Of a DNA stretch of 64,000 nt, positions 10,690-61,144 are shown piece after piece; position 1 is the first letter of the stretch, and the number at the start of each line of letters is the position of its first letter. The stretch is from the NCBI RefSeq assembly GCF_001457775.1, contig NZ_CYSG01000021.1, positions 1 to 64,000 of the forward strand. The letters run 5' to 3'. This DNA is from Phaeobacter sp. CECT 5382. Its GTDB lineage: Bacteria > Pseudomonadota > Alphaproteobacteria > Rhodobacterales > Rhodobacteraceae. The position numbers and the translations under genes are program-made. The notes beneath the pieces are model-generated. The model was not told where the DNA came from and ran no database searches. It saw only the letters and a list, made by a program, of their open reading frames with translations.

Positions 10690-10743
10690 GGGCTCTCCTG
10701 AAGGTCACAGTGTTTTTCATGGACCTGATGGCCCGTTTTCTTT

Positions 10744-10753: not shown

Positions 10754-10858
10754 TTTGCGATCAACTACCAACACAATATGTTGCAACGCGGCAATTTCAC
10801 CAAAATTCATCTTAATCACATGTTTTTTAATATTAAAAAATATCTATGGAATTTTCCA

Positions 10859-10887
10859 TTGACCTAAACCCACGCTCTCCCCTAGGT
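10859..10887 (+). promoter_or_regulatory. Candidate promoter of the thiamine operon
   Basis: TTGACC at 10859-10864 and CTAGGT at 10882-10887 are separated by 17 bp. A start about seven bases downstream would place the transcript 5' end at the first strand of the TPP aptamer (10893). The -35 match is good and the -10 match is weak. Confidence 0.4.
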
Positions 10888-10892
10888 CTAAG

Positions 10893-10997
10893 CCTACGCA
10901 GGGGAGTCCCACCGAGGGGACTGAGAGGCTGACAGGGCAGAGTAATCTGACCGGCGATGCGACCCTTAGAACCTGACCCAGTTGACACTGGCGTAGG
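10893..10997 (+). ncRNA. TPP riboswitch (THI element) upstream of thiC
   Basis: The outer stem P1 is CCTACGC (10893-10899) pairing with GCGTAGG (10991-10997). Inside it are the conserved GGGGAGTCCC, CTGAGAGGCT (10921-10930) and GACCCTTAGAACCTGACC (10961-10978) elements of the thiamine pyrophosphate aptamer. It lies about 140 bases before the thiC start on the same strand. There is no clear intrinsic terminator between aptamer and thiC, so control is probably by masking the thiC ribosome site, as usual in Gram-negative bacteria. Confidence 0.95.
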
Positions 10998-11004
10998 AAG
11001 CTAG

Positions 11005-13976
<2,972 letters not shown>

Positions 13977-43319: not shown

Positions 43320-43421
43320 TCTGGGTAGGGTGACAAATCCGTTATGGCCGCCTGCTCTGGAGCGGTCCAGACCATACGTCTTTACCGCATCCCACAATCC
43401 CTTGAAAAAACGAGGGGTTAA

Positions 43422-44144
43422 TCAGATCGTCAAGGTCCCCACGCTGGCCCCGCCACAAACATAGAGCGTCTGGCCGGTGACAAAGCCGTTTTCGGGATCA
43501 CAGAAATACAAAAAGGCGTTGGAAACATCACGCGGCACGCCCAGACGCCCAACAGGCAGACTGGCTGCCAGCTTTGCCTCGCGCTCAGACCCCTGGGCCA
43601 CAATGCCCCAAAAATTATCCGTCTGTACCGGCCCAGGTGCCACCACATTGACAGTGATGCCGTGTGGCGCGAGCTCCAGCGCCCAGGTGCGCGCCATGCC
43701 GATCACCCCGGCCTTTGACGCGGCATAAGCGGTGCGGGTCGGCACGCCCAGCGCCGCACGCGAACCATTGAACAGCACCCGGCCAAACTGGCGCGCCTTC
43801 ATGGCCGGCAAAAAGGCCTGCAGCAATGTCAGAGCAGACCCCAGCTGCAGCTGGGCCAGACCGGTGATGTCACCGGGCGTTGCGTCTTCGAGCAGATTGG
43901 GCCAGATCACCCCGGCGTTTTGCACAAAATGCGTCACCTCATAGGCGCTAGCAATCTGGGCTGCGACCTGTGCGACAGCCGCAGCGTCCAGCAGATCGGC
44001 CTGCATCTGAATCAGCGCCTCAGGCACATCCGAGGCCTTGCTGCGGGCGATCGAAATCACCGTGTAGTCCAGATCCAGCAACCGTTTGGCCAGATCCAGA
44101 CCTATGCCCTTGCTGCCTCCGGTGATCACGGCGGTATGTTTCAT
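43422..44144 (-). CDS. SDR family oxidoreductase, last gene of the aromatic catabolic operon
   Basis: This 240-residue classical short-chain dehydrogenase has an intact cofactor loop TGGSKGIG (residues 8-15), QNAG in place of NNAG, and catalytic Ser128, Tyr140 and Lys144 in YAASK. It should therefore be an active NAD(P)-dependent oxidoreductase. Start at 44144 overlaps the cyclase stop (ATGA) and follows GGAGGAGAC. In the pathway proposed for this operon it could reduce or oxidise a 3-hydroxy-oxindole intermediate, but its substrate is not visible from the sequence. Confidence 0.85.
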   Translation of the reverse strand: MKHTAVITGGSKGIGLDLAKRLLDLDYTVISIARSKASDVPEALIQMQADLLDAAAVAQVAAQIASAYEVTHFVQNAGVIWPNLLEDATPGDITGLAQLQLGSALTLLQAFLPAMKARQFGRVLFNGSRAALGVPTRTAYAASKAGVIGMARTWALELAPHGITVNVVAPGPVQTDNFWGIVAQGSEREAKLAASLPVGRLGVPRDVSNAFLYFCDPENGFVTGQTLYVCGGASVGTLTI

Positions 44145-44920
44145 GCCGTCTCCTCCACCAGGGCGAGCACCCGCAGGGGGCTGCCGGTACCGCCTTTGAT
44201 TTTCAGTGGTGCTGCAATTAGCATTGCCCCTGTGGCAGGCAGCTGATCCAGATTGTTGAGACATTGCAGACCGTATTTTCCGGCCCCATGCAGGATGAAA
44301 TGGGCCGGATAAGGCGGCACATAGTGCATGCCCTGCCCGGCATCTGTGCCAACGGTTTCGGTGCCAAAGCCGCGAATGTTGCGGTGTTCGACCAGATAGC
44401 GCATTGCTTCAGGGTCAGGCCCCGGCGAATGTGGCCCGTCATCCTGCATGTTCAGATAGGCAGCGCCGCGCCGTTTCGACCAATCCGTTCGCATCAAGAC
44501 CCAGGCGTCTTCCGGGATGGGGCCATGTTCCGCCTCCCAAGACTGAATTTCCGCAACGGTGAGTTCAAAATCATCGTCCGCCGCCGCGCCTTCGGAACAA
44601 TCGATCACCACCACCGGACCAACAAAGGCCTGCAGCGGGATTTCATCCACCGCCCCATGGGCCACATCGCGCCCCGAGATCCAGTGGCTGGGAGCATCAA
44701 AATGGGTGCCGGTATGTTCCGACATCGAGATATTATGCCATTTCCAGGCGGGGCCGCGATGATCATAGGCGCTGACCTCCTCCATGCGGAAACGCGCGCA
44801 TTGACCAAATTCCGGCGGCAGTATGATCACCGGAAAATCAGGATCAAGCCGATGCGTCAGATCCACCATGCGGATCGCCCCCGAGGCCAGCGCCTGGGCC
44901 AGGTCTGCAAGCTGTGTCAT
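44141..44920 (-). CDS. Cyclase-family metal hydrolase, isatin-hydrolase-like
   Basis: This 259-residue protein belongs to the cyclase/kynurenine formamidase superfamily (PF04199), whose members hydrolyse amides with a Mn or Zn ion. The metal motif HTGTHFDAP is at His69, His73 and Asp75, and a second conserved part is DDGPHSPGPDPEAM followed by GFGTETVGTDAG. The overall pattern is closest, as far as I can judge, to isatin hydrolase, which opens isatin to isatinate in indole-acetate breakdown. Kynurenine formamidase is the main alternative. It is coupled by a 4-bp overlap to an SDR gene and lies 15 bp after the DUF35-SDR fusion. Confidence 0.8.
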   Translation of the reverse strand: MTQLADLAQALASGAIRMVDLTHRLDPDFPVIILPPEFGQCARFRMEEVSAYDHRGPAWKWHNISMSEHTGTHFDAPSHWISGRDVAHGAVDEIPLQAFVGPVVVIDCSEGAAADDDFELTVAEIQSWEAEHGPIPEDAWVLMRTDWSKRRGAAYLNMQDDGPHSPGPDPEAMRYLVEHRNIRGFGTETVGTDAGQGMHYVPPYPAHFILHGAGKYGLQCLNNLDQLPATGAMLIAAPLKIKGGTGSPLRVLALVEETA

Positions 44921-44935
44921 GACGATCTTCCTATT

Positions 44936-46195
44936 TTACAGTCCATCTGCGGCCCCCATGGTCATCTCCCGTTCCAGCACCTTGGGATCCCGGCGCATCC
45001 GGGCAATCAGATCCTGTGCGACATCGCCGCAATACACATCCTCCAGCCCGTCGTGCAGCCCCGCCACAATGGATCGTGCAAGCCCCCTGGGCAGCACCTT
45101 GGGCGGCGGCAAGGGCTGATGCCAGTCATCCTCCGTGGGGCCGGTAAAAACATTCATCAGCCGCAGGCCTGCGCCGCGAAATTCTCCCCGCAGGCTCTGG
45201 CTGAGCGACAGGGCTGCCGCTTGTGAAGCCGAGAAACTGCCAAACCCGGGCGCGGGCATCAGCGCATGGGCCGACAAAATGTTGACCCAGGCAGTTGCCG
45301 CGTTTACCCCGTCTGCCGTGCGTGCGCACATGCCGGGGCCAAAGCTTTGCGCCAACCGCATCAATCCCAGATAGTTCACGTCCATTTCCTGCTGCGCAAA
45401 GGCGGTATCGGCCCGCGTCAGAGCACTGCCCGGCCGGATAAAGCGGGCGGTGTTGATCAGGATATCCACCTTGCCGCCAATCTCCCCAGCCAGTTCACGG
45501 GTGCTGCTGGCATCCGTCACATCCAGTGGCAGGATTTCGACCTGGGCGATCTCTGACAGGGCCTGTTGTTGCGGGTTAGGGCGCCAAGTCTCTGAAACGC
45601 CCACAAAGATCGTGCTCGCCCCCGCAGTCACCAGGGCTTTGGCCAGAACCGGCGCCAAATCACTACGCCCTTCGGTGATCAACACCCGCCGGTGTTTCGG
45701 ATCCGATGTCAGGGCGCGCAGTTGCGGGTCGTCTTCCATGTTCGGGCTCCTGTCCAGCGGCAGGGCAAAGAGCACCCCCTGCCCGGCGCGATCCAATCGG
45801 TTTATCAACCTCACCGGGCTGCGCGGAGCAACGTCGCCATGCACATGGCACAGGATCACCGGCCCCGCGTTCAGTTTGACAGAGCCCAGTCGCCATGGCG
45901 CACGTTCACGGAAATAGAGGTTGGTCGAAGTGCGTACCGTGGTTTCAGCCAAAAGGTCCCCATGCGGGTCGATATCGCGCCAAGGCAGATTGACGGACAG
46001 GCATGTGCTGCAGGCATCGCGCGGCGGGTATTGTACAGAACCGCAAGCCGCGCAGACCTGTAGCGCAAAGCGTCCTTCGGCAGCCGCAGCCGTCAGTCCC
46101 AGTGCTGCACGGCTGCGCGCTTCGGGGGGACGGGTTGGCGACAGGGTGCGGTTTTGCGGGTTCTTCTTTGGCGGCGGCTGCAATGGGGTGCTCAT
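44936..46195 (-). CDS. DUF35 zinc-ribbon/OB protein fused to a degenerate SDR domain
   Basis: This 419-residue protein joins two families. Residues about 40-150 form a DUF35 unit: a zinc ribbon (Cys48, Cys51, Cys62, Cys65) and an OB fold. Residues about 168-400 are a short-chain dehydrogenase fold. In the SDR part the cofactor loop is altered (ITEGRSDLAP) and the catalytic Tyr-xxx-Lys is replaced by Phe321 and Gln325 in SFSASQAA, while Ser308 is kept, so it is probably not an active dehydrogenase. DUF35 proteins partner thiolase-like enzymes, and the thiolase-like gene directly upstream overlaps this gene by 4 bp. I infer a structural or CoA-binding subunit of a thiolase-like lyase. Confidence 0.82.
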   Translation of the reverse strand: MSTPLQPPPKKNPQNRTLSPTRPPEARSRAALGLTAAAAEGRFALQVCAACGSVQYPPRDACSTCLSVNLPWRDIDPHGDLLAETTVRTSTNLYFRERAPWRLGSVKLNAGPVILCHVHGDVAPRSPVRLINRLDRAGQGVLFALPLDRSPNMEDDPQLRALTSDPKHRRVLITEGRSDLAPVLAKALVTAGASTIFVGVSETWRPNPQQQALSEIAQVEILPLDVTDASSTRELAGEIGGKVDILINTARFIRPGSALTRADTAFAQQEMDVNYLGLMRLAQSFGPGMCARTADGVNAATAWVNILSAHALMPAPGFGSFSASQAAALSLSQSLRGEFRGAGLRLMNVFTGPTEDDWHQPLPPPKVLPRGLARSIVAGLHDGLEDVYCGDVAQDLIARMRRDPKVLEREMTMGAADGL

Positions 46196-47421
46196 GCCTG
46201 ACCTCCTTGCAAAATGGCAGCGCTGGAACAGACACCGCGATCATAGTTGATCATGCCAAAGCCAGACACCATAGCCCGGCTTGCGCCAGCCACCTGGGTC
46301 GGCCCGGCCTGCCCCGTTACCTGGCGGATTGCCTCGACCAGGCCAATAAAACCACCCGCCGCCCCTGCCTGCCCCCCGGACAGCTGCCCGCCCGAGGTAT
46401 TGTGGGGAAAATCACCTGTCACGGTCAGATCATGATCGCGAACAAATTGCGCCGCCGTGCCCTTGGCACAAAACCCCAGATCTTCGATCTGCATCATCGA
46501 GATCACCGGATAGTCGTCATAGGTTTGCAGCAGGTCGATATCTGCTGGCGCACAGCCTGCCTGACTCCAGAGATCGTCGATATCGATCGTCCAGCCGCCC
46601 CGCAGCTGGATCGGGTCTGATGCATGGGCATTGTGGCGCTCGATCGCGCCTGAAATGGTGGCAAAGGGAAGATTGCGCCGCTGTGCCTCCTCTACGGTCA
46701 TAACCAAAAAAGCCTCGGCGCCGGCACAGGGCATGACGCAATCAAACAGCGCAATCGGGTCGGCAATGGGACGCGCATCCAGATATTGTTCCAGCGTCAG
46801 CGGTTTTTTCATCACAGCACCGGGATTGTTCAGCGCATTGTGCCGCTGTGCGACGCAGATACGACCAAAATCCTCGCGGGTTGCGCCATATTCATGCATG
46901 TAACGGTCTGTCAGCAGGGCAAAATTCGCATTTGGCCCGCCATATCCATAGGGATAGGACGCATCCATCGCAAAGCGGCTGAACGACGACAGCAAAGAGC
47001 GGAAACTGTCGATGTGATTGGTATCACCCGCTACACAGGCGACGATGTCAGCGTCTCCGGCCTGCACCGCGCGGGCCGCCTTGCGTAGCGAAATCACCCC
47101 GGAGGCACCGCCCATCGGAATATGATCCAGCCAGCGCGGTGTCAGGCCCAGATGCTGCGTCAACCCAACAGCGGTATCGGGAAACAGGGTAAAGCTAGAG
47201 ACCGAAAACCCGTCGAGCTCTGCCGGTTTCATCCCTGCCGTCCGCAAGGCCGTCCCAAGCGCGCGGGCAATCCACCAATGCGCCGTCTCGATCGAATAGC
47301 GCTGATAGGGGATCGAGGTCGGCGCGACAAGCGCCACCCCCTCGTAGGACTGTTGCGGGCGGGAGATCCCTCCGCCATTCTGGTCGACTGCCTGCCCGCC
47401 TGCTGCTCTGGAGTCGCTCAT
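46192..47421 (-). CDS. Thiolase-like protein (SCP-x/Ltp2 type) lacking the catalytic cysteine
   Basis: This 409-residue protein has the thiolase fold, but the nucleophilic Cys position is Gly105 in IPMGGASG, and the usual GHPxGA loop near the C-terminus reads GGQAGAAG, with Gln351 where His is expected. NTSGG (341-345) and a late Cys398 are retained. It is therefore unlikely to be a true thiolase. Thiolase-like proteins of this kind, working with a DUF35 partner, include the steroid retro-aldolase Ltp2. The next gene encodes such a partner. I infer a CoA-thioester retro-aldol lyase in this operon. Confidence 0.82.
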   Translation of the reverse strand: MSDSRAAGGQAVDQNGGGISRPQQSYEGVALVAPTSIPYQRYSIETAHWWIARALGTALRTAGMKPAELDGFSVSSFTLFPDTAVGLTQHLGLTPRWLDHIPMGGASGVISLRKAARAVQAGDADIVACVAGDTNHIDSFRSLLSSFSRFAMDASYPYGYGGPNANFALLTDRYMHEYGATREDFGRICVAQRHNALNNPGAVMKKPLTLEQYLDARPIADPIALFDCVMPCAGAEAFLVMTVEEAQRRNLPFATISGAIERHNAHASDPIQLRGGWTIDIDDLWSQAGCAPADIDLLQTYDDYPVISMMQIEDLGFCAKGTAAQFVRDHDLTVTGDFPHNTSGGQLSGGQAGAAGGFIGLVEAIRQVTGQAGPTQVAGASRAMVSGFGMINYDRGVCSSAAILQGGQA

Positions 47422-49073
47422 GCCACTTGCCTTTTCTTCAGATGCGCGACGCTGACTGTCGCGGGATCCGTCATCAGCTCTGCGGCAAGCGTTTTCAGCG
47501 CCGCCCTCTGGATCTTTTGTGTCGCAGTCAGCGGCAATTTTTGCACAAAGGCGATATGGCCGGGCACTTTATAATAAGCCATCTGATCCAGCGCCCAGCG
47601 ACTGATCTCTTCTGCCAGCTCTGGCCCTGCGTTGGGACTGTTCTCTCCCTCCGACACCAAGGTCAGGCAAGCAAAGACCTCATCACCGCGAATAGCATCC
47701 GGCACTGGGGCGACGGCGGCAGCTTTGACAGCCGGGTGGCGCATCAGGATCGACTCGACCTCGACGGCGGCGATATTTTCGCCCGAGCGACGAATGACGT
47801 TTTTCTTGCGATCAACGAAGAACAAGAAACCCGCCGCATCCGCGCGCACCACATCCCCGGTGTGAAACCAGCCGCCTGCCCAGGCTTCATCGGTGGCATT
47901 CGCATTTTTATAGTATGACTGGAAAAAGCCCGCACGCGGGTCTGCCCCTTTGCGCCGCACCAGCAGTTCACCAGGCGTGCCTGTTGGCACTGGCTGGCCG
48001 TCTTCGCCCTGCAGCAAAACTTCCAGCCCCGCGGGCACTCGGCCCAGCGCCGAACATCCGATCAGCCGATCCGTCTCATGATTGGAAATCACCGCCCCCG
48101 CGCCAGTTTCAGTCATCGCCCAGGCCTCCATCAGTGGAAAGCCAAAGCGGGTCTCAAAGGCTGCGTGCAATTTTGGGTCAACCCCGGCGCCAAAGCCGAA
48201 CCGCACGCTATGGCTGCGCTCAGCTGCACTGGGTTCCAGCCCCATCAGCATCGAGGGCATCACGCCAAGGTAATGCAGACAGGTGGCGCCGCTGTCTTTG
48301 ACATCCTGCCACCAGCTGCGCGGATGGAACCGGTCCAGCACCGTCAGACAGCCGCCTGTCGCCAGCATGGCCATGAAAGAATACGCCATTGCATTCATGT
48401 GAAAGATTGGCAGCGGCGTGATCATGCGCTCGCCTGTGGTGGTCAAAGACACGATACCGCCGAGCCCGGCATACCAGCGCGCCACCTGCAGGAAGTAGTC
48501 ATTGGTGAGCACGCAGCCCTTGGGCTGCCCCGTAGTGCCAGAGGTATAGAGAACGGCGGCCTCTTGTGATGCGGCCCCATCGCCCGATGTGTTGCAGTGC
48601 GCGACGGCAGCTCCCGGGCGCGGTGCGGGGAGATCTACAGTCAGCGTGATCACCGGCAAAGCCAGACCGCTTGCCTCTGCCGCCAGTTGCAGTTCTGCCC
48701 GGCGCCCGGTCAGTGTAATCACCAATGCAGGTTCGGCATGCGACAGCAGATACTCCAGTTCGGCGGCGCGCAGATCCGGGTTGATCGGCACCACCGAGGC
48801 GCCGATCCGGTTGAGCGCGAGCCAGATCAGAAAGAACACCGGCCGGTTTTCCAACAACAAGGCCACCCGCATTCCAGGGCCATATCCCGCCAATGTGAAG
48901 CGGTCTGCCCAGATCGATACCGCCTGTTCGGCGGTGCCATAGGTGATTTCGCCCGGCGCAATATCGTAGATCTCTGCCGTGGCAGGCAGGACGTTCAGCA
49001 TTGGACGGCTGGGATACTGTGCGACCGAGGCTGCAAACAGATCATAAACCCGCTGGTGATCTGTCTCTGTCAT
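47418..49073 (-). CDS. Acyl-CoA synthetase (AMP-forming)
   Basis: This 551-residue adenylate-forming ligase activates a carboxylic acid to its CoA thioester. The phosphate loop reads YTSGTTGQPKG, then AWAMTETGAG, the hinge region GWFHTGDVVR, and the C-terminal catalytic Lys in LPLTATQKIQ. Start at 49073 overlaps the dioxygenase beta stop (ATGA). Within the operon it would activate the acid made by the Rieske dioxygenase before C-C cleavage; an indole-acetate-derived acid is my best guess. Confidence 0.88.
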   Translation of the reverse strand: MTETDHQRVYDLFAASVAQYPSRPMLNVLPATAEIYDIAPGEITYGTAEQAVSIWADRFTLAGYGPGMRVALLLENRPVFFLIWLALNRIGASVVPINPDLRAAELEYLLSHAEPALVITLTGRRAELQLAAEASGLALPVITLTVDLPAPRPGAAVAHCNTSGDGAASQEAAVLYTSGTTGQPKGCVLTNDYFLQVARWYAGLGGIVSLTTTGERMITPLPIFHMNAMAYSFMAMLATGGCLTVLDRFHPRSWWQDVKDSGATCLHYLGVMPSMLMGLEPSAAERSHSVRFGFGAGVDPKLHAAFETRFGFPLMEAWAMTETGAGAVISNHETDRLIGCSALGRVPAGLEVLLQGEDGQPVPTGTPGELLVRRKGADPRAGFFQSYYKNANATDEAWAGGWFHTGDVVRADAAGFLFFVDRKKNVIRRSGENIAAVEVESILMRHPAVKAAAVAPVPDAIRGDEVFACLTLVSEGENSPNAGPELAEEISRWALDQMAYYKVPGHIAFVQKLPLTATQKIQRAALKTLAAELMTDPATVSVAHLKKRQVA

Positions 49074-49549
49074 GGCAGCAACTGGATGTTGCCAAAGGCC
49101 GCATCGCAATTCAGCAGATCGACCCGTTTGTTGGCGATCCGAAGGTTTCCGTCGACCAAGCGCAGCTCATGCGTGGCCACCAGCGCCAGCAGGAATTGCT
49201 CATCTAGTCGGGTTTCGACGTAATGCATCGATGTATTGGTGACAAAGCGTCCGGCTTGCGCATCGAATTCATCAATGAAGGGGCGTTGGATCACGTGACT
49301 GCAGCGGCTTTTGGGTTTCTGGCTGAAGGTCCGTTCGCCATTCAACCGTTCCACCCTCAGGCGCCGCATGAAGTGGTCCTCATAGAGCAAAGAGGTCACC
49401 AGATCTGGATCAGCCTGCTTGTAGTCCAGCGGCATCCAGTAATGCCCCTCCTCCAACCAGAGGTCGAGCCATTCGCTGAACCGTCCCTCGTCCAGCATCC
49501 GCACCTCGGCGTAGAGAAAATCTATGACATCGTCACGGCTGACAGTCAT
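49070..49549 (-). CDS. Aromatic-ring-hydroxylating dioxygenase beta subunit
   Basis: This 159-residue protein matches the small, NTF2-like beta subunit of Rieske oxygenases. The pattern DFLYAEVRMLDEGRFSEWLDL at the N-terminus, and a central WMPLDY, are typical. The subunit is structural and stabilises the alpha trimer. It overlaps both neighbours by 4 bp, directly behind the alpha subunit gene. Confidence 0.9.
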   Translation of the reverse strand: MTVSRDDVIDFLYAEVRMLDEGRFSEWLDLWLEEGHYWMPLDYKQADPDLVTSLLYEDHFMRRLRVERLNGERTFSQKPKSRCSHVIQRPFIDEFDAQAGRFVTNTSMHYVETRLDEQFLLALVATHELRLVDGNLRIANKRVDLLNCDAAFGNIQLLP

Positions 49550-50892
49550 TGGGCGGCCTCCTCTGTCGTGCCGCCCATCGAGACAGTGATGAAATGTGCC
49601 CAGGCCTGCATCTGGTTGCGCATCTGTCGCTCTGTGGTGCCGTTTTCGACCTGCGCCGCACTGTAGTCTTCGACCTCAGTGTGCAGGCGCTGGATATTGA
49701 TCCATTCCAGCCCGTCCACATGCAGCCCTTCCTGGGCGCGCTCGTACATTTCCAGATCATCATGCCCCACCATCGAAGTCGGGGCGTTGATCAGCCGGTT
49801 ATACATCGCGGTGCGCTGTAACAGCACATCCGGTGCCCCGACCAGCCGGTAGACATAGCTTTCCACCAGGGTGCGGTCCGGCCCCAGCGGAATGAAATTG
49901 CGCAGCTGCTGCACCGGCCCTTTGATCATGATATTGGGGAAATAGACAGTGTTATGGCGGTTCTCGCCCAAGATTTCCTGCGCCTTTTCAGCACCATGGG
50001 CGGCGGTCATGCTGTCCAGATAGTCCGGCGCCATGGAATAGTCGGAATGGATCGAGTGATGCACCCCGGTGTGGCCATGCCCATTAGGCCAGGTGCGGAT
50101 GCCCATTTCCTCAAAGAATTCATAGGGCGACATGAAAGGCGCGATGATCTCCATCGCCATGGGTTTGGGCCTGTCGTCTGGCCAATCGCTGTCCTCAAAC
50201 AGCTTGATGGCAGTACCGGCGCTGCTTTCATGGGCCACCATCGGGTGACAGGTGTCGGTCTGGTTATCTACCAACATCTTCCAGTTGCACTTGTGCATAT
50301 AGCGCAGTGGCGGCCCTGCGACCTCCAACCGGCCTTCGGGGGCGCGATCCACCATATTGTCGAGGCTGCTGAGAGACTCGCCAAAATAGTCGTCAAAGCT
50401 GATGCCGGTCGCAGCCAAACGCGCAAAGACAAAGCCGCGATGGTTCTGCACGGCCCCCACCGGCAGCATGCCATGGCTGGCTTCGCTTTCGCTGAAATCG
50501 GTGTCGGCATAGCCCTTTTTCAGCGGGATCGCCAACAGGCAGCCGTTGGTTTTGAAGCTCCAGGCGTGATAGGGACAGCGGAAGAACTTGCCGGTATTGC
50601 CGCTGCGATCAATGGCGATCTTGGTGCCTTTGTGCGGGCAGCGGTTGAGCAGCACATGGATTTCATTGTCCGTGTGGCGCACCATGATCACCGGCTGATC
50701 ACCGATTTGGGTGGTGATATAGTCTCCCTTGGCCGGGGTCTGGCTGTCATGACCGACAAAGACCCAAGTATTGGCAAAGAGATGTTTCATCTCCAGCGCA
50801 TAGATTTCCGCATCAATATAGGTGTCGCGGTGCACCTGATGCTGCTGCACCAGGGCCGAGACCGCCGCCGGATTGTCGCTGTATTTTCCCAT
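49546..50892 (-). CDS. Aromatic-ring-hydroxylating dioxygenase alpha subunit (Rieske)
   Basis: This 448-residue catalytic subunit has a Rieske 2Fe-2S centre (Cys85-x-His87 and Cys106-xx-His109) and a mononuclear iron site with His216 and His221 in DNQTDTCHPMVAH. Asp in the C-terminal half would complete the iron site. It receives electrons from the reductase encoded just upstream. In gene neighbourhood it resembles the indole-acetate dioxygenases of auxin-degrading bacteria, but other aryl acids are possible. The ATG at 50892 is preferred over a GTG immediately before it. Confidence 0.9.
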   Translation of the reverse strand: MGKYSDNPAAVSALVQQHQVHRDTYIDAEIYALEMKHLFANTWVFVGHDSQTPAKGDYITTQIGDQPVIMVRHTDNEIHVLLNRCPHKGTKIAIDRSGNTGKFFRCPYHAWSFKTNGCLLAIPLKKGYADTDFSESEASHGMLPVGAVQNHRGFVFARLAATGISFDDYFGESLSSLDNMVDRAPEGRLEVAGPPLRYMHKCNWKMLVDNQTDTCHPMVAHESSAGTAIKLFEDSDWPDDRPKPMAMEIIAPFMSPYEFFEEMGIRTWPNGHGHTGVHHSIHSDYSMAPDYLDSMTAAHGAEKAQEILGENRHNTVYFPNIMIKGPVQQLRNFIPLGPDRTLVESYVYRLVGAPDVLLQRTAMYNRLINAPTSMVGHDDLEMYERAQEGLHVDGLEWINIQRLHTEVEDYSAAQVENGTTERQMRNQMQAWAHFITVSMGGTTEEAAQ

Positions 50893-50915
50893 CACGTTCC
50901 CCTCCGCTTGTCTCT

Positions 50916-51860
50916 TCAGATATCCAGCACCAGACGCGCTGATTTTGCCCGGCTGACGCAGATCTGCATGACTTTGCCTGCTGCCCGCTCCGCCTCAGAG
51001 AGCACCACATCGCGGTGATCGGGGGTGCCGCTCAGCACATCTGTCTGGCAGATGCCGCAATCGCCGCGGGCACAGTCAAACATCACATCGACACCTGCCT
51101 CTTCCAGCACCTCGACGATGGTTTGGTCGGCGGGCACGGTGAAGACACGGCCATCGCCGATCTCCACCTCAAACGGCTGATCCCCTGATTGAGTTTCCGG
51201 CGCAGTGAACAGCTCGAAATGGATCTGCGTTTTGGCAAACCCGGCAGTCTCTGCCAGATCACGCACCGCGTCGATCATGCCCTTGGGGCCGCAACAATAG
51301 ATATGTGTCTTCGGGCTGGCCGCCGCGATCAGTGCCGCCAGATCAATCGCTGCGGTGTCGTCAAACCAGCAGGTCAGCCTGTCGCCAAGCAGCGGCGTTA
51401 GTCGGCCCTGAAAGGCGCAGAGCTCCCGCGTCCGGCAGGCATAGTGCAGTGCAAAATCCTCGCCGCGCGCGCTCAGCTCCGTCGCAAAGGAGATCAGCGG
51501 CGTCACCCCGATCCCGCCAGCAAGCAGCAGCGCAGGGGCCGCGTCATCGTGAAGCTCAAAATCACTTTTGGGCAGGCTCACAGAGATCTTGTCGCCGGGG
51601 GCCAAGGCGTGCATCGCAACCGATCCCCCTGCCCCTGCGGCCTCACGCTGAACCGCTACACGGTAGCTTTCCGGCACTGCTGCGGGAGAGGTGAAATCCA
51701 CCAACGAATAGGAGCGCAAACCCAGCGGGCCGAGGTCAAAATCCAGATGCGCGCCCGGCGCATAGGCTGGCAGTGCCGCCCCATCGGGCGCAGCCAATGT
51801 AATCATGCGGATATGGTCCGAAAGCGCCTCGCTCGACGTTACTGTCAGGCTCTGTGTCAC
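50916..51860 (-). CDS. Ferredoxin reductase of the PDR/VanB family
   Basis: This 314-residue electron carrier has an N-terminal flavin domain with LRSYSLV, an NAD-binding domain with LLLAGGIGVTPLISF and CCGPKGM, and a C-terminal plant-type 2Fe-2S domain with CARGDCGICQTDVL and a distal Cys in QICVS. It would pass electrons from NADH to the Rieske dioxygenase. I start it at the GTG at 51860, preceded by GGGAGG at 7 bases; this gives the normal family length. A palindrome at 51914-51925 lies just upstream. Confidence 0.88.
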   Translation of the reverse strand: MTQSLTVTSSEALSDHIRMITLAAPDGAALPAYAPGAHLDFDLGPLGLRSYSLVDFTSPAAVPESYRVAVQREAAGAGGSVAMHALAPGDKISVSLPKSDFELHDDAAPALLLAGGIGVTPLISFATELSARGEDFALHYACRTRELCAFQGRLTPLLGDRLTCWFDDTAAIDLAALIAAASPKTHIYCCGPKGMIDAVRDLAETAGFAKTQIHFELFTAPETQSGDQPFEVEIGDGRVFTVPADQTIVEVLEEAGVDVMFDCARGDCGICQTDVLSGTPDHRDVVLSEAERAAGKVMQICVSRAKSARLVLDI

Positions 51861-51913
51861 CGGCACGCCTCCCTGGTCAATTCTGTCTGTTGTTGCGTTA
51901 CTTGATATTTTGT

Positions 51914-51925
51914 ATGATTTTTCAT
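51914..51925. promoter_or_regulatory. Candidate MarR operator upstream of the reductase-dioxygenase operon
   Basis: ATGATTTTTCAT is one of three nearly identical 12-bp palindromes in this island. It lies 54 bp upstream of the reductase start codon, in the gap that follows iorB. The same sequence stands upstream of the TRAP binding-protein gene. Confidence 0.6.
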
Positions 51926-51934
51926 GTTTAAATG

Positions 51935-53467
51935 TCAAATATCATCTGTAAAACTGCGCAAAGTGCGCATCGCGCCCGTCAGGGCCTCACCCTCGGCATC
52001 CATCAGTGCCGCCTGTCGTAGCCTGCGGAGCCAATCCGCGCCGTCGTCGCGCGCTTCAATCAAGGGTATTGCGCTGAAAACAATATAAAATTTTGACAGG
52101 CCGCGTTTGTGTGTATCGGAATAGCCCTTGATCAGGCGCTGGCAGGCCAGGAGTTCGCAGGCCAGATCATAGCGCGCCCCCGCGAGTGCCAGTGCCGCAG
52201 ATTTCAGCCGGTGCAGATGCGCGAGCTCAACCTGATGCCGCATCAAACGTGGTCGCCAGGGGCGGAGCGCCGCCAAGAGCCAGAGCAACAAAAAGCCGCG
52301 TAACCTATCACTGCGCAGACGTCGGCCCCGCCGCGTCAGCCGCGCCAATAGTCCTTGCATCCAACGGTTCTGCCCTACCCGATTGGCCAGCCCCGGCGGC
52401 AAAAGCGACGTCAGCTCTTCGGGGCGGGGGTGGAAATATTCCGTGACCTGCACGATCTGGCCTGTGCCAATTTCCTGTTCGCGCCGCAGACGGTGCTGTC
52501 GCGCGCTGCGAGTTTTCAGATCGGCCACCCGCAGAATATCATCATAACACATTGCATTAGCGATGTATTTTGCGGCCTGTTGCGACAGCTGATAGTCTTG
52601 TGCCGGATCGTCCAGCGCCAGAAAGTCATCAAGGTGCTCCAGATAAGCGCGCCCATAGGCCAAGTCTTGATAATCCACCACCCGGCGCAACCCGGCATTT
52701 GCCATGGCGTGCACTGGCAATGGCAGCGCCTGAACCCGCTGCTGCATGTCCTGCCATTGGCGCATCAGGGCAGGCTTGCCTGCGACAGGCTTCGCCCCCG
52801 CCTGCGGCGCTCGTTCAGCCGCCTTCGCAGAGACTCGATCGTAGTTCAGCGCTGCATGAAACGCCGCCAGACTGGCCTCGACCCCGCGACCGGAGCCTTT
52901 GATCACCGTCTCAAACATCTCAACCGGAAACGGCAGAACCTCGGCCCGCGCCAAGCCGCCAAACAGGCTGGCAGAAATGACGCTTCCCGCGTCGCGCGCC
53001 AGAGTTTCCATATCAAAACAGACCAGCTGCCGCGCTGCACTGCGCAAAGAGGTCAGAACCGCTTCACTCTCTTTGCGACCATCCCCCGGTTCCTGCTTTT
53101 CCGACACAGCCAGAATACGATGCGACGAGGCAATCAGCGTGGTCCGGTCCGGCGTTACAAAGCCGCGCAGCACCGCACGCCCGGCCTCCATTAGCTCAGA
53201 GGCGATGAGCACATCAATATCCCCCGGCGCAGGGCTCAACCCAAAGACCACCGGGCGCGTCGATTTGGGCGCCATTTCAACGTAGTATATCGTGGCCCCG
53301 GTTCGCTGTGCGACCCCGGCCACTGACGTGACCTGAACGCTGTAACCGCCCAAAGTGGCGAGATCTGCCACCCAGTTTGACAGCACACCGCCGCCCTGCC
53401 CGCCGACCGCAACGATGGCCATTTTCAAGATCTCTGATGAACTATCCATCGCAGTTTCGGCGCTCAT
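51935..53467 (-). CDS. iorB: Indolepyruvate oxidoreductase subunit beta family protein (IorB-like, long form)
   Basis: This 510-residue protein begins with the pyruvate-ferredoxin-oxidoreductase gamma-type domain (about residues 15-205), including VAVGGQGGGVLSNWVADLA and VTSVAGVAQRTGATIYYVEM. The remaining 300 residues form the helical extension (DUF6537) seen in aerobic two-subunit indolepyruvate oxidoreductases. With the preceding gene it would oxidatively decarboxylate an aryl 2-oxo acid to the acyl-CoA. It overlaps iorA by 4 bp. Confidence 0.85.
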   Translation of the reverse strand: MSAETAMDSSSEILKMAIVAVGGQGGGVLSNWVADLATLGGYSVQVTSVAGVAQRTGATIYYVEMAPKSTRPVVFGLSPAPGDIDVLIASELMEAGRAVLRGFVTPDRTTLIASSHRILAVSEKQEPGDGRKESEAVLTSLRSAARQLVCFDMETLARDAGSVISASLFGGLARAEVLPFPVEMFETVIKGSGRGVEASLAAFHAALNYDRVSAKAAERAPQAGAKPVAGKPALMRQWQDMQQRVQALPLPVHAMANAGLRRVVDYQDLAYGRAYLEHLDDFLALDDPAQDYQLSQQAAKYIANAMCYDDILRVADLKTRSARQHRLRREQEIGTGQIVQVTEYFHPRPEELTSLLPPGLANRVGQNRWMQGLLARLTRRGRRLRSDRLRGFLLLWLLAALRPWRPRLMRHQVELAHLHRLKSAALALAGARYDLACELLACQRLIKGYSDTHKRGLSKFYIVFSAIPLIEARDDGADWLRRLRQAALMDAEGEALTGAMRTLRSFTDDI

Positions 53468-55629
53468 GTTGCGGCCTCTGGATCAAACTGCAGGCGGCGC
53501 CGCGCCCGCAGATGTTGCAGGGCACCAATCACCCTGCCCCGCCAGCCTGCACGCAGCCTGTCATAGCGGGTCGGGTTCTGCACAAGGTCGGCCTGATAAA
53601 ACGAGGGGCAAAGCACTGCCGCATCAGCGACTTCGCCGCAGGTGCCACAGCCGACGCAATTGTTGTCGATACTGGCCACCGGATCGTCGCGCAGCGGGTC
53701 CGCCAGCGGTTTCAGCGTCAGCGAGGGGCAGCCCGACAGCCGGATACAGGCGTGATCGCCAGTGCAAATGTCCTCGTCCACGCCAAAGCGGCTGCGCAGC
53801 AGGCGCTTGCCTTCGACCTCTGCCTGACGCTTTATCGGCTTTTCGCGGCGTTGCCGGTTCAGCATGCATTCCGAAGCCGCGATGATGACTTTGGGGCCTG
53901 CGATATCAGTGGTCAGCGCTTCATGCAGCGTGTCGCGCATCCGGGTTACGTCATAGGTGCGATCAATCTGGCGGATCCATTGCACGCCGACCCCAGCTAC
54001 AGCCTTGGCAATCGGGTTCTGGGTGGTGCGGTGCTGGTTATCTGCCCGCGAGGACAGAATGTCCTGCCCACCTGTGGCCGCCGAATAGAAATTATCGACA
54101 ATGACGATGACCCCATCATCCTGATTATACACCGCATTCCCGATCGAGCTGGTCAATCCATTGTGCCAGAACCCGCCATCGCCCAAAAAGCTGATCGACC
54201 GCTTGCCAGCCGATCTGTCATTCAGCGCCGAGGCCGAGGCTGGCCCAAGCCCATAGCCCATGGTGGTGGCCCCAAGATTGAAGGGCGCGTTGATCGAAAA
54301 CAGATGGCAGCCGATGTCGCTGGCGATGTGATGCGGCCCCAGCTCCTGTTCGACCAGCTTGGTGGCGGCAAAGATCGGCCGCTCAGGGCAGCCAACGCAG
54401 AACCCGGGCGGGCGGGCGGGCACGTTTTCTTCCAATGCAGCGGGGCGCAGGATTGGTGGCGTATTCGGAGCGCGCGCCCGGGCAGGCAAAAGATCTGCAG
54501 CCTGCTTGCGCAAAAACTCACCGATGGCCTGCAGCATCACCGGTGCGGTCAACTCTCCGGCCTCTGGGAACAGATCCTGCCCCTTGCCAAACAGCTGCGC
54601 TGTGGCACCTGCCTTGTGCAGTATGGACCGGATGTTCTGCTCAATGTAGTCGGGGTGGCCCTCTTCAACCACCAAAAGCGCGTCTTTGTTTGCGGCAAAT
54701 TCCAGCAATTCTTCATCAACCAGCGGATAGACCACATTCAGCACATAGAGCGGGATCTCGGTTTCTCCGTGAATGTCGGCCAGACCGAGCCGTTGCAACG
54801 CCCGGATTACACCATTGTACATACCGCCCTGCAGGATAATGCCGCAGCGATGGTCAGGATTGCCAAACTGCTCGTTCAGCCCCTCGGAGCGAATAAAGGC
54901 GCGTGCAGCTGGCAGGCGCTGCGCGACTTTCTCCTGCTCATGCAAAAAGGAGGCCGGTGGCAGCACGATCCGGTCCAGATCCCGTTTCGGCTGTTCCAGC
55001 GCGTCTCGCACCGTCATCGACGGGCGTTGATTGTCGCGCGCCTCGAATTCGCCAAGCAGATGACAGGCACGGATGCGGATCTGCAGCATCACCGGCGCAT
55101 TTGACGCCTCCGACAGGCGGAAACCATCGCCGACGGATTTTACAATCGCGGGCAGATTGGGGCGCGGATCCAGCAGCCAGATCTGGCTTTTCATTGCAAA
55201 ACCATGGCTGCGCTCCTGCATGATCGAAGAGCCTTCACCGTAGTCTTCGCCCACGATCACCAATGCCCCGCCCCTGACACCTCCCGAGGCCAGATTGGCC
55301 AGCGCATCCGAGGCGACATTGGTGCCAACAGTGGATTTGAACGTCACTGCGCCGCGAATGGGATAATGTACCGAAGCCGCCAGCGAGGCCGCAGCTGTCG
55401 CCTCAGAGGCACTTGCCTCGAAACGCACACCCAGCTCCTGCAGCAATGGCGTGGCATCGGCCAGAACATCCATCAGATGGCTGATCGGAGAGCCCTGATA
55501 GCCACCGACATAACCCACACCGTTTTCCAATAGTGCCTTGGTGATGGCCAAAATACCCTCGCCGCGAAAGGTTTCACCCGCGCCGATCCGAAGGTGCTCC
55601 ACCTCTTGCTTGAATGATCTCTCTGCCAC
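53464..55629 (-). CDS. iorA: Indolepyruvate ferredoxin oxidoreductase alpha subunit (IorA-like)
   Basis: This protein of about 721 residues binds thiamine diphosphate and decarboxylates aryl 2-oxo acids. The N-terminal pyrimidine domain has ENGVGYVGGYQGSPISH, the diphosphate part contains ISFLGDGGFWHNGL and NAVYNQDDGVIVIVDN, and the last 100 residues carry two 4Fe-4S groups (CTGDHACIRLSGCP and CVGCGTCGEVADAAVLCP). I prefer the GTG at 55629, with GGAG 6 bases upstream, over an ATG at 55641. A candidate MarR operator lies 18-29 bp upstream. In this operon its substrate could be indolepyruvate or isatinate. Confidence 0.88.
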   Translation of the reverse strand: MAERSFKQEVEHLRIGAGETFRGEGILAITKALLENGVGYVGGYQGSPISHLMDVLADATPLLQELGVRFEASASEATAAASLAASVHYPIRGAVTFKSTVGTNVASDALANLASGGVRGGALVIVGEDYGEGSSIMQERSHGFAMKSQIWLLDPRPNLPAIVKSVGDGFRLSEASNAPVMLQIRIRACHLLGEFEARDNQRPSMTVRDALEQPKRDLDRIVLPPASFLHEQEKVAQRLPAARAFIRSEGLNEQFGNPDHRCGIILQGGMYNGVIRALQRLGLADIHGETEIPLYVLNVVYPLVDEELLEFAANKDALLVVEEGHPDYIEQNIRSILHKAGATAQLFGKGQDLFPEAGELTAPVMLQAIGEFLRKQAADLLPARARAPNTPPILRPAALEENVPARPPGFCVGCPERPIFAATKLVEQELGPHHIASDIGCHLFSINAPFNLGATTMGYGLGPASASALNDRSAGKRSISFLGDGGFWHNGLTSSIGNAVYNQDDGVIVIVDNFYSAATGGQDILSSRADNQHRTTQNPIAKAVAGVGVQWIRQIDRTYDVTRMRDTLHEALTTDIAGPKVIIAASECMLNRQRREKPIKRQAEVEGKRLLRSRFGVDEDICTGDHACIRLSGCPSLTLKPLADPLRDDPVASIDNNCVGCGTCGEVADAAVLCPSFYQADLVQNPTRYDRLRAGWRGRVIGALQHLRARRRLQFDPEAAT

Positions 55630-55646
55630 GGCGCGCTCCATTATTT

Positions 55647-55658
55647 ATGATTTATCAT
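55647..55658. promoter_or_regulatory. Candidate MarR operator upstream of iorA
   Basis: ATGATTTATCAT differs by one base from the other two palindromes in the island and is extended by AT-rich flanks. It lies 18-29 bp before the preferred iorA start, in the promoter or leader region. The marR gene ends 79 bp further upstream. Confidence 0.6.
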
Positions 55659-55736
55659 ATAAAGAGCTGTGCAAACCTGTCAATCACCAACCGCGCTGCA
55701 AAACACAGGTGGAGCGAAGCTGATTTGGAACCTGAT

Positions 55737-56219
55737 CTAGATCGGATTTTTTCTGATATTCTTGAGCACCGTCATAAGGATGCGCTGCAGTGCTTCGCGG
55801 TCCTCTGATGAGAGACCCTTCAGCATGGTCTCATTAGCGCCGGTCAGGACGGGCCAGACCTGTTCATAAAGCGCCGCACCGCTTTCGGTCAGCTCCACCA
55901 CCCGCGAGCGGCTGTCTTCTTCACTGACGCGGCGGGTGATACGGCCTTCGGCTTCGAGCTTGTCCAGGGCACGGCTCATGGCGGGCTGTTCGGCGATGGC
56001 ATGCACACAAAGTTCATTCACTGTCATCTGGCCATAGACCTTGAGACTGACGATGATCCGCGTGGCGACTGTGGTCAGACCTGCTCCCTTGATATCTGCC
56101 TTCACCGATTGATTGTAGCGATGCACGATCCGGTTCAACAGGTAGGAGGTGATATTGCCCAGCTTTGGGCCCTGATCGGCTTGATCTGTGTCGATATGAT
56201 CTTTGGCGGTCCGGGTCAC
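55737..56219 (-). CDS. MarR-family transcriptional regulator of the aromatic island
   Basis: This 160-residue winged-helix regulator shows the MarR pattern: VYGQMTVNELCVHAIAEQPAMSRALDKLEAEGRI (helix-turn-helix), then the wing VSEEDSRSRVVELTESG. The ligand pocket cannot be read. I start it at a GTG at 56219, with AGGAG 7 bases upstream; a TTG at 56255 would add twelve residues. Placed between the TRAP binding protein and iorA on the same strand, it is the likely controller of the island, and MarR proteins are known to control auxin catabolic loci in other bacteria. No palindrome like the other three is evident before its own start. Confidence 0.88.
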   Translation of the reverse strand: MTRTAKDHIDTDQADQGPKLGNITSYLLNRIVHRYNQSVKADIKGAGLTTVATRIIVSLKVYGQMTVNELCVHAIAEQPAMSRALDKLEAEGRITRRVSEEDSRSRVVELTESGAALYEQVWPVLTGANETMLKGLSSEDREALQRILMTVLKNIRKNPI

Positions 56220-56547
56220 AACTAGGCTCCTATTCAGGCGGGCGGTCTCAGGCAAGAAGATCTCTCAGCCGTACAGACATATGACAATTCTCAGCGCCTG
56301 TCACAATTCTCTGTCCCTGCTCTCTGTCCCTGCTCTTTGGGTCTGACACATGGCTTCGGGCAGACGTAGCCTCACCGTCGGCTCTGTCAACAAATGATAC
56401 ACGGGGTTTGGGCCGAAACGTCCGAAGCTCTGGCCATTGGTCTCGCCAGCCCAACCGCAGCAACATCCAGACCGATCGCGTGTTGGTAAATGCATTCTCA
56501 ACGACAACGCCGGGGGTCAGGATCCCCCGGCGCTGTTTTTAGCGCCT
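56220..56547. other. Intergenic region between the TRAP binding protein and marR
   Basis: This 328-bp gap holds a strong hairpin after the binding-protein stop (56508-56532) and a perfect 13-bp tandem repeat CTGTCCCTGCTCT (56311-56323 and 56324-56336) about 100 bp before marR. The marR promoter must lie here. No gene is seen. Confidence 0.5.
56508..56532. terminator. Hairpin after the TRAP binding-protein gene
   Basis: CGCCGGGGG (56508-56516) and CCCCCGGCG (56524-56532) form a 9-bp GC stem with a 7-base loop, 15 bp after the stop of the minus-strand binding-protein gene. Only a weak T-rich stretch follows on the minus strand. It should end or stabilise that single-gene transcript. Confidence 0.6.
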
Positions 56548-57567
56548 TTATTTCGCGGCAGCCATTTCTGCTGCAATCATGTCATAGGCAGCCTGCGCAT
56601 CAATGCCCGTTGCGGCCACTTCTGTCAGGATCTTGCTACGAACGTGCTCTGCCATTGCGGCAAATGCGGCTTGGTCCGCCTCTGATGCGGTGAATATCTT
56701 GTTGTCATCAGCAGCCTCGGTCACCGCGCGAGCAGCCGCGTCATGAGCATCCCATGCTGCGCCAAAGACCCGGCTTGCGGTCTCACCAAAGACCTTTTCA
56801 TCTAGTGCGGTGCGCACGTCTTCCGGAAGGGCATCAAAGGTTTCCTGGCTCATCAGAACCGCAAAAGAGCCACGATACAGGCCGCCGGGCATCTCATAGA
56901 CGTTCTTGGCCACTTCGGTCAGCTTGAAACCTGTGCGTTCACCGATATTCATCGCCACCGCATCCGCCGCACCTGACGACAGGGTTTCATAGACTTTGGG
57001 TGCCGGAACCTGAATGCCAACCAACCCCAGCTCTGCCCCGACATCCGCCGAAACACCGCCCCCAAGGCGGGTCTTCAGCCCCTTGAGGTCCGCCAGCGAC
57101 GCGACATCGGAATTGGTATGGATCTGCCCGGGACCATGGGTGGTCAGTGCAACCAGTTTAACACCGCGATGTTCGTCCAGCGCTGCCAGATGCGCTTCGT
57201 GGACGCGCCAATAGGCCACCGAGGACGCCTCGGCGCTGCCCTGATAGCCTGGCAGTTCGATCAGTTTGGTGGCAACAAACCGGCCTGGCTGATAGCCATG
57301 AAAGATGATGGTCATGTCGGCGGCACCGTCCATCACCAGATCCATCTGCGCCGGAGGTGGAGCCAGCCCGTGCTTCAGCTCGCCGACCACTTCGCCATCG
57401 GTGGCTTCCGACATCATGTCGATCAGAACCTCAAGCATCTGGGTGTTGATCGGATGGGACGGCGGCAACCAAGTTGAGACGGTGAGCTTGGTTTCGGCAA
57501 CAAGCGGTGTCGCCAGAACCGCAAGGCTCAAGGCTGCGGCTGCACATCTGCGCGTGAATGATTTCAT
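56548..57567 (-). CDS. TRAP transporter substrate-binding protein, DctP type
   Basis: This 339-residue periplasmic protein has a signal peptide (residues 1-24, cut after VLATPLVAE region) and the DctP fold. The carboxylate-binding Arg is expected in LADLKGLKTRLGGGVSADVG, a conserved segment here. It would capture an organic acid for the island. No DctQ or DctM membrane genes are present next to it, so it must use subunits encoded elsewhere, or it serves as a sensor. The ATG follows GGGAGAAC, and a candidate MarR operator lies 66 bp upstream. Confidence 0.88.
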   Translation of the reverse strand: MKSFTRRCAAAALSLAVLATPLVAETKLTVSTWLPPSHPINTQMLEVLIDMMSEATDGEVVGELKHGLAPPPAQMDLVMDGAADMTIIFHGYQPGRFVATKLIELPGYQGSAEASSVAYWRVHEAHLAALDEHRGVKLVALTTHGPGQIHTNSDVASLADLKGLKTRLGGGVSADVGAELGLVGIQVPAPKVYETLSSGAADAVAMNIGERTGFKLTEVAKNVYEMPGGLYRGSFAVLMSQETFDALPEDVRTALDEKVFGETASRVFGAAWDAHDAAARAVTEAADDNKIFTASEADQAAFAAMAEHVRSKILTEVAATGIDAQAAYDMIAAEMAAAK

Positions 57568-57960
57568 TGTGTTCTCCCTGGTATCGTTCTTGGTTGGTGC
57601 ATTTTTCTAATTATTATTGAAACGTCATTAACATGATTTTTCATGTAATTCAAGATTTCTGACCTCATCGCATGACTGCCGACACGACGGTCAGCACGAC
57701 AGCAGGCAAGATGGCCAACACGTTAGGGATATCTTTCGGGGTTCAAAATGGGGAGCCGCCCCTCGCCAGAAACAGAAATTCAAGCCTACTGGCGCTTTCA
57801 AAGACCCGTTCAATCATCACTTGCATGAAAGCCGCAATTCGACATTCTGGTACAGGCTCTTGGTACAACACACGGGGCATCCAAACACGGGGCATCCAAG
57901 CCCCAACCTGGCCAAATCTAGCGTCGGGCGCGCCCAAAAGAATCCATGACACAGGAAGCC
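57568..57960. other. Divergent region between TRAP binding protein and YcaO-like gene
   Basis: This gap of about 390 bp holds the palindrome at 57633-57644, a perfect 15-bp tandem repeat ACACGGGGCATCCAA (57870-57884 and 57885-57899), and a second 15-bp-period repeat of ATGACACAGG that duplicates the start codon of the YcaO-like gene (57946 and 57961). A 101-residue frame at 57672-57977 has low coding character and I do not accept it. Confidence 0.5.
57633..57644. promoter_or_regulatory. Candidate MarR operator upstream of the TRAP binding protein
   Basis: ATGATTTTTCAT here is flanked to give a longer perfect palindrome, ACATGATTTTTCATGT (57631-57646). It is identical to the core at 51914-51925 and lies 66 bp before the binding-protein start codon. 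Confidence 0.65.
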
Positions 57961-58908: not shown

Positions 58909-59006
58909 TCCAGCGCACCAGACAGCCTGTTTGAAAAGCTTCCGAAAGTTCAGGTCACAGAAGAATCACAGATCACATCTCAAACTGGACGCGGGAGGCT
59001 TTCACA

Positions 59007-61123: not shown

Positions 61124-61144
61124 ACCCAGCTCAGATGGCTGGGT
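61124..61144. terminator. Hairpin between convergent genes
   Basis: ACCCAGC (61124-61130) and GCTGGGT (61138-61144) form a perfect 7-bp stem with a 7-base loop between the end of the unknown gene and the end of the SARP-type regulator gene. It can serve both directions. No T run is seen. Confidence 0.5.

Follow-up and report, generated by a model that had tools for sequence, protein, structure and literature searches.

The 64,000 nucleotides analysed here, referred to as the window, are positions 1 to 64,000 of the forward strand of contig NZ_CYSG01000021.1 of Phaeobacter sp. CECT 5382 (assembly GCF_001457775.1), and their sequence very probably encodes a complete iad (indole-3-acetic acid degradation) operon of a Roseobacter-type bacterium. 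Operons like it are known from soil and marine bacteria, and it is not a new variant; the fresh element is probably not the operon itself but a correction to the pathway for two of its products, IadG and IadH. In these proteins, and probably in iad loci at large, we propose a third class of DUF35-coupled acyl-CoA retro-aldolase that would cleave dioxindole-3-acetyl-CoA, with a Tyr of IadG as the base and an Asp as the likely acid. The short-chain dehydrogenase/reductase (SDR)-like half of IadH would be a conserved dead enzyme, serving as a scaffold or holding isatin for IadI, and dioxindole would be a side product. We put the probability of this reading at roughly 0.7. If it holds, the central steps of the iad pathway include a redox-neutral retro-aldol cleavage for which there is precedent in a known enzyme class, and a pseudo-enzyme domain that is conserved.

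Structure of the operon

The minus-strand run at 43422-56255 is a compact operon in which a MarR regulator is followed, in order of transcription, by ten enzymes. Every gene listed below is an open frame with a single terminal stop; percentages are identities to the corresponding proteins of a Variovorax-like genome (G379).

55737..56255, minus strand: iadR-type MarR regulator; best solved relative 7KYM, 94.5 bits
53464..55641, minus strand: iadA (IorA-like, TPP enzyme); TIGR03336 279 bits, under the cut-off of 650.9; 63%
51935..53467, minus strand: iadB (IorB-like, POR + DUF6537); NF006179 645 bits, cut-off 348; 44%
50916..51938, start codon uncertain, minus strand: iadC, PDR/VanB-type ferredoxin reductase; Fer2, NAD_binding_1; 46%
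49546..50895, minus strand: iadD, Rieske oxygenase alpha subunit; 571.6 bits to 9O71 and 569.1 to 7YLS (Variovorax IadD); 55%
49070..49549, minus strand: iadE, oxygenase beta subunit; PF00866; 46%
47418..49073, minus strand: iadF, AMP-forming CoA ligase; PF00501 207 bits; 53%
46192..47421, minus strand: iadG, thiolase fold with an aldolase-type active site (YDDY; Gly at the Cys site); 63%
44936..46195, minus strand: iadH, DUF35 (Zn ribbon + OB) fused to a pseudo-SDR; 54%
44141..44920, minus strand: iadI, isatin hydrolase; 509 bits to 5NNB; HTGTHFDAPSH, GLQC and WKW signatures; 62%
43422..44144, minus strand: iadJ, active-type SDR; TGGSKGIG and YxxxK intact; 53%

Overlaps of 4 bases join the genes at the A/B, D/E, E/F, F/G, G/H and I/J junctions, and gaps of 20 and 15 bases separate C/D and H/I. 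The overlap at B/C depends on TTG as the start of iadC; a later start is likelier, because the product would be 340 aa here and annotated homologues have 310 to 330 aa. Pfam domains, read from iadJ to iadD, are SDR; Cyclase; zf-ChsH2, OB_ChsH2_C and SDR; Thiolase_C_1; AMP-binding; Ring_hydroxyl_B; and Rieske with Ring_hydroxyl_A, followed from iadC to iadA by a Fer2 reductase, POR with DUF6537 (IorB) and TPP_enzyme_C (IorA). A first-pass annotation of this DNA had described a tight minus-strand series with mostly 4-bp overlaps, and its gene calls were right in both coordinates and frames. It had placed IorAB upstream of that series; the two genes are indeed there, but they are members of the operon rather than mere neighbours, the operon proper starting at iadA (IorA).

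IadG resembles the steroid side-chain aldolases

A 2025 preprint assigns a monooxygenation to IadCDE, an oxidation giving dioxindole-3-acetate to IadJ, CoA ligation to IadF, and the roles of ketothiolase and alcohol dehydrogenase to IadG and IadH, those of IadF, IadG and IadH being derived from annotation (PMC12633357; here and below, statements on cited papers refer to excerpts of their texts). On sequence grounds IadG and IadH are probably misassigned, and a retro-aldol cleavage would replace both of the steps given to them.

Species genomes were scanned with IadD, which gave at least 562 stretches with a relative of the Rieske alpha subunit (E up to 1e-3), a number that may include Rieske proteins other than IadD; the best 80 were used. 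Judged by record title, Roseobacters, Rhizobiales and Roseibium make up most of these, and three are Gammaproteobacteria. Excluded before counting were the window's own copy (L001), L092 and L100, which duplicate regions re-read as L105, and frames that scored too low or were too short, most of them truncated where a contig stops. Frames were read from stop to stop, with approximate N-termini, and the counts represent near relatives together with named plasmid records and sampled genomes rather than iad loci in general.

The best solved relatives of IadG by sequence are 9MYR and 6OK1, the steroid side-chain aldolases Sal and Ltp2. At the column of the Cys of Pyrococcus furiosus thiolase 7YVY, which we take to be the thiolase nucleophile, all 77 IadG sequences carry Gly, and the nucleophilic Cys of Claisen-type thiolases is accordingly missing throughout; BbsB, a DUF35-linked thiolase, is not comparable at this column since its alignment begins one residue later. 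In Sal and Ltp2 the Tyr of the motif YD-x-[YF] acts as base (PMC12329534). This motif reads YDCY in Sal, YDHF in Ltp2 and HDAF in BbsB, and YDDY in 77/77 IadG. Both Gln residues beside the catalytic pair of Sal (347 and 352, a numbering worked out from the IadG-Sal alignment and PMC12329534) are likewise kept in every IadG. Like Sal with Shy (9MYR) and Ltp2 with ChsH2 (6OK1), IadG has a DUF35 partner: iadH follows iadG in 63 of the 65 scan loci with iadG, and in the two exceptions (L042 and L056) the genes found stop with iadG, close to a contig end. Catalytic Tyr and DUF35 partner, the pair of features that marks the Sal/Ltp2 aldolases, are hence both present in IadG/IadH.

The differences concern the acid and the fusion. 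The third motif residue is Asp in IadG, Cys in Sal and His in Ltp2; with Asp at the Sal Cys304 site and Gln at the Ltp2 Tyr344 site in 77/77 sequences (the Gln shared with Sal, unlike Ltp2), IadG has the general acid of neither enzyme. Since its acid residue differs from both, IadG would work like these aldolases and yet be a class of its own. The DUF35 domain, moreover, is fused to an SDR-like domain in IadH and to a hydratase in the Sal and Ltp2 systems.

The steroid substrates of Sal and Ltp2 (PMC12329534) raise the question of whether the operon merely resembles iad and acts on another aryl-acetate or a steroid-like acid, to which the moderate match of its MarR to Bradyrhizobium japonicum IadR could be added. 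We regard this as very improbable: a MaoC-type hydratase, the companion of Sal and Ltp2, is not among the ten operon enzymes (Pfam scan), and the nearest solved relatives of IadD and IadI are auxin-pathway and isatin enzymes by a wide margin, 9O71 scoring 571.6 bits with IadD and the next kind of solved relative 135.

The fold of IadG cannot by itself separate aldolase from thiolase, and the case rests on residues. In a Foldseek search with the predicted model, which is of moderate confidence (pLDDT 71), Sal and Ltp2 come first (E-values 2.6e-23 and 3.9e-22), followed by the thiolases 7YVY (2.5e-21) and 7PXP (5.8e-21).

The SDR half of IadH

The SDR part of IadH folds as an SDR, with 5U4S as its best structural match (model pLDDT 80), and the whole protein is conserved, mean column identity being 73% over 20 sequences. 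The hallmarks of an active SDR, Tyr-x-x-x-Lys and TGxxxGxG, are nevertheless not intact in any of the sequences compared. Catalytic Tyr and Lys occur together in none of the 75 IadH SDR domains, the Tyr position being Phe in 63 and Tyr in 4, and the Lys being kept in one, that of the Variovorax-like genome; all three Gly of the cofactor motif are likewise present in 0/75. The neighbouring SDR, IadJ, provides an internal control and keeps all of these residues in 79/79 sequences. The four zinc Cys of DUF35 are retained in 75/75 IadH. The SDR half of IadH is therefore probably best described, from its residues, as a dead scaffold. Sulfitobacter THAF37 has a second IadG-like protein (YDDY) paired with a DUF35 protein without an SDR part (L104, 9529-11129), downstream of a full iadC-J run; therefore an IadG-like protein can work with DUF35 alone.

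Proposed pathway

Indole-3-acetic acid (IAA) would be taken up, probably via a TRAP transporter, and would release the MarR repressor from a site before iadA. IadCDE would oxygenate the pyrrole ring of IAA, IadJ would oxidise the hydrated product to dioxindole-3-acetate, and IadF would convert the latter to its CoA thioester. IadG and the DUF35 part of IadH would then split off acetyl-CoA and leave isatin, which IadI would open to isatinate, en route to anthranilate. The predicted function of the operon is the conversion of indole-3-acetate, through dioxindole-3-acetate and isatin, to anthranilate. Homology, gene order and catalytic motifs were read directly from the DNA, and the substrate and the reactions of IadCDE, IadJ and IadI are carried over from work on Variovorax and Labrenzia.

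The chemistry of the intermediate bears on its middle step. Dioxindole-3-acetyl-CoA is a tertiary 3-hydroxyacyl-CoA whose hydroxyl stands on the quaternary C3, and therefore, by established chemistry, it gives no 3-keto thioester for a thiolase. Its retro-aldol cut, by contrast, delivers isatin and acetyl-CoA in one redox-neutral step, and the residues described above make it fairly probable that IadG with the DUF35 of IadH catalyses this reaction. No paper proposing a retro-aldol step in IAA degradation was found in a search that lay outside the subscription literature, and the word 'aldol' is absent from the main texts of PMC12633357 and PMC9613470.

The published scheme, in which IadG acts as a genuine ketothiolase, IadH as an alcohol dehydrogenase, and the two jointly strip off the acetyl side chain by reduction to yield dioxindole, seems improbable to us. 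In its favour, deletion of iadG or iadH lowers anthranilate (PMC12633357), IadG does have a thiolase fold, and the Variovorax-like IadH keeps its Lys and four other IadH their Tyr. Against this stand the Gly at the 7YVY Cys column together with YDDY in IadG, the missing Tyr-Lys pair and glycine motif that IadJ retains, and the quaternary C3. A detour over dioxindole would further need a re-oxidation, since the relatives of IadI hydrolyse isatin.

The proposed pathway and its control have several points against them. TM-scores of the IadG model to the thiolases 7YVY and 7PXP equal or exceed those to Sal and Ltp2, and C8H7NO2, the formula of dioxindole, accumulates without iadI (PMC12633357), a product that might be isatin reduced by other enzymes of the cell. 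The iadAB genes, though in the operon here, are dispensable in Variovorax (PMC12633357). The match of the window's MarR to IadR is moderate, and 3CJN, a MarR of unstated function, scores nearly as high. Of the contact columns of Variovorax MarR_73, the window's MarR keeps only part: Arg46 is retained, but Asn/Lys stand at Ser28/His32 (alignment, by eye), so that it may or may not bind IAA. A palindrome considered below as operator is missing in L037 and L014, the loci with the MarR closest to that of the window, which weakens this assignment.

Identity as an iad operon

Both its oxygenase and its isatin hydrolase support the assignment of the operon. IadD shares 56% identity with its Variovorax counterpart (9O71), and iadC and iadE adjoin iadD, so that an IAA-type Rieske oxygenase is present with its reductase. 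IadI shares 83% identity with isatin hydrolase A of Labrenzia (5NNB). Signatures described for isatin hydrolases are HxG[T/A]HxDxPxH plus GLQC or GLAS, and a Trp pair (PMC6117287), and the window's IadI carries HTGTHFDAPSH, GLQC and the Trp pair (WKW). Among 74 IadI sequences the metal motif is present in all, with GLQC in 71, GLAS in 2 and a gap in 1. The first-pass annotation had expected indole-3-acetate breakdown with a Rieske first step, an isatin hydrolase and anthranilate as product, an expectation supported by the origin of these closest solved relatives in auxin or isatin breakdown.

Over 257 residues, 5NNB and the protein encoded by iadI in Roseibium aggregatum IAM 12614 (L052, 15783-16577) show 100% identity. 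Isatin hydrolase A, crystallised as 5NNA/5NNB, is the IadI of the Roseibium (Labrenzia) aggregatum iad operon, and is now tied to an auxin operon; the main text of its structure paper has no 'operon' wording (PMC6117287).

Comparison with Variovorax supports the same identity. In V. paradoxus CL14 the genes iadC to iadK2 are numbered consecutively, and iadA adjoins the repressor gene for MarR_73 (PMC10374108, PMC9613470). The IadD of the Variovorax-like genome G379 shares 94% identity with CL14 IadD. This genome has the order A-B-C-D-E-F-G-H-I-J, and read on it all ten enzymes are homologous to those of the window, 44 to 63% identical and in the same order, including the downstream genes F-G-H-I-J. 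The window differs from Variovorax in its MarR, which is of the B. japonicum type and points in the same direction as iadA, whereas the MarR_73-like gene of G379 (303 bits to 7KFO) and iadA are transcribed divergently. It also has a TRAP DctP where Variovorax has the ABC binding proteins IadK2/IadK3. Ruegeria pomeroyi DSS-3, a species among the strains reported as IAA degraders (PMC9613470), carries its own iad locus (L004). Like the window, this has C-D-E-F-G-H-I-J as a single run (IadD 61% and IadH 47% identical to the window's), but iadAB and a related MarR or DctP were not found in the 29 kb examined.

IorB/IadB and IotA/IadA have been called exclusive markers of iad-like operons (PMC9613470), and both are present here. 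The suggestion that IorAB with a DUF35-SDR fusion formed an undescribed variant was rejected on these grounds: the first are published markers, and the second, found equally in G379, is the normal IadH. The markers of iac-like operons are iacA, iacB and iacI. A Pfam scan of the ten operon enzymes gave no acyl-CoA dehydrogenase-like family, iac sequences themselves not being compared; IacA is acyl-CoA dehydrogenase-like. The window adds one more marine bacterium to the predicted auxin degraders, with relevance for alga-bacterium signalling, and the iad pathway is now being engineered into root bacteria (PMC12633357).

Distribution and the place of iadAB

The genes C-D-E-F-G-H-I-J lie in order on one strand in 52/80 scan loci, and because this order recurs the arrangement is not due to chance; F-G-H-I are in order in 61/80. 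These order counts ignore genes matching no query, and contig ends truncate several of the loci. Strong IadD matches occur in 8/398 genomes of a phylum sample, and IadG at E < 1e-100 in 16/198 genomes of a family sample, the strain's own genome included in both. F-G-H-I or part of it occurs with no Rieske gene in 25 kb in Sagittula (L008, 9096-13907), Shinella (L009, 9201-14045), Agrobacterium pusense (L007, 10781-13993) and Novosphingobium (L010, ~10727-13110).

These data bear on whether the operon mainly serves indolepyruvate, which IadAB would convert to indoleacetyl-CoA, this being hydrolysed to IAA or entering as the thioester. The iadAB genes share a single run with C-J in the window and in L080, in L077, where the DNA is cut, iadB stands in front of iadC, and IorAB-like genes lie within 25 kb around the Rieske-less modules of L008 and L009. 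In Variovorax, on the other hand, iadC-K2, a region that does not include iadAB, restored the formation of anthranilate from IAA (PMC12633357). Furthermore, iadA lies within the examined DNA in just 10/80 scan loci, though others may carry it elsewhere, and the Pfam scan found no thioesterase family among the ten enzymes. We consider such a main role unlikely. The first-pass annotation had offered indolepyruvate or indole acetate as feed; indole-3-acetate is supported, indolepyruvate may be a feed, and its role as main substrate is not supported.

Two further IadD homologues occur in G379 (L105 8661-10331 and G379:C19:33224-34501). Their identities to the CL14 protein are 58% and 45%, and one of them lies beside the iad operon. 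A Pantoea plasmid (L103, 9051-16095) shows an IadD relative in a different setting: its IadCDE-like genes are neighbours of genes for a FAD oxidoreductase, an amidase and an aromatic amino acid transporter.

Regulation

Against solved structures the window's MarR scores 94.5 bits with 7KYM, 92.4 with 3CJN, 59.0 with 3E6M, 38.6 with 3CDH (R. pomeroyi MarR) and 30.7 with 7KFO (Variovorax MarR_73). The first of these is B. japonicum IadR (PMC11630574), which itself has Asn, Asn at the Ser28/His32 columns of MarR_73. MarR control of the operon, as in the first-pass annotation, is likely from these matches, but it is less well supported than the substrate, the Rieske first step and the isatin hydrolase, 3CJN being so close. 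Two sites before iadA may serve this control:

55654..55683, minus strand: promoter-like site TTGACA-18-TATGAT before iadA; 11/12 consensus matches
55646..55659, no strand: perfect palindrome TATGAT-AA-ATCATA, putative MarR operator over the -10 box, overlapping the promoter-like site

The region holds 2 promoter-like sites against 1.0 expected, which is weak evidence alone, and 5 terminator-like sites around the MarR gene against 2.0 expected. The palindrome is the sole match in the window at up to one mismatch, with 0 in 100 shuffles, and an exact copy occurs in 1/121 loci (L007, Agrobacterium pusense), where genes for a MarR and a CoA ligase flank it. That it is the MarR operator has, on this evidence, about even odds.

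Transport and fate of anthranilate

The following gene lies next to the operon:

56548..57567, minus strand: lone TRAP solute-binding protein DctP; NF037995 53.6 bits, cut-off 50

No match to DctM was found on the window's contig. Contig C5 of the genome carries DctM and DctQ at 208205-210141, with no DctP seen by eye in the 12 kb frame list. This DctM and DctQ are 78% and 53% identical to the set beside the iad operon of Sulfitobacter indolifex, and the window's DctP is 71% identical to the DctP there. It is somewhat likely from these identities that DctP and the C5 DctQM form a single TRAP transporter split between two places.

Contig C10 (73405-80618) encodes a protein of the salicylyl-CoA 5-hydroxylase family (1267.7 bits, cut-off 1078). 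Grouped with it are an SDR, an enoyl-CoA hydratase, an acyl-CoA dehydrogenase, and a ligase that comes close to the benzoate-CoA ligase family (338.3 bits, under the cut-off of 375.25). Genes of this type, the ligase excepted, come after the iad genes in Azospirillum thermophilum, and a 2-aminobenzoyl-CoA route for anthranilate has been named (PMC6221969). This 2-aminobenzoyl-CoA-type cluster may well take anthranilate further.

Other genes in the window

Immediately downstream of iadJ, on the same strand, is a gene for a SLAC1-family anion channel (42297-43397). At 57946-60398 a YcaO-domain gene (81 bits) adjoins one that weakly matches animal haem peroxidase (26.7 bits, cut-off 25), and at 61144-63093 a 649-aa protein gives a weak match to the BTAD regulator domain (28.9 bits, cut-off 22.1).

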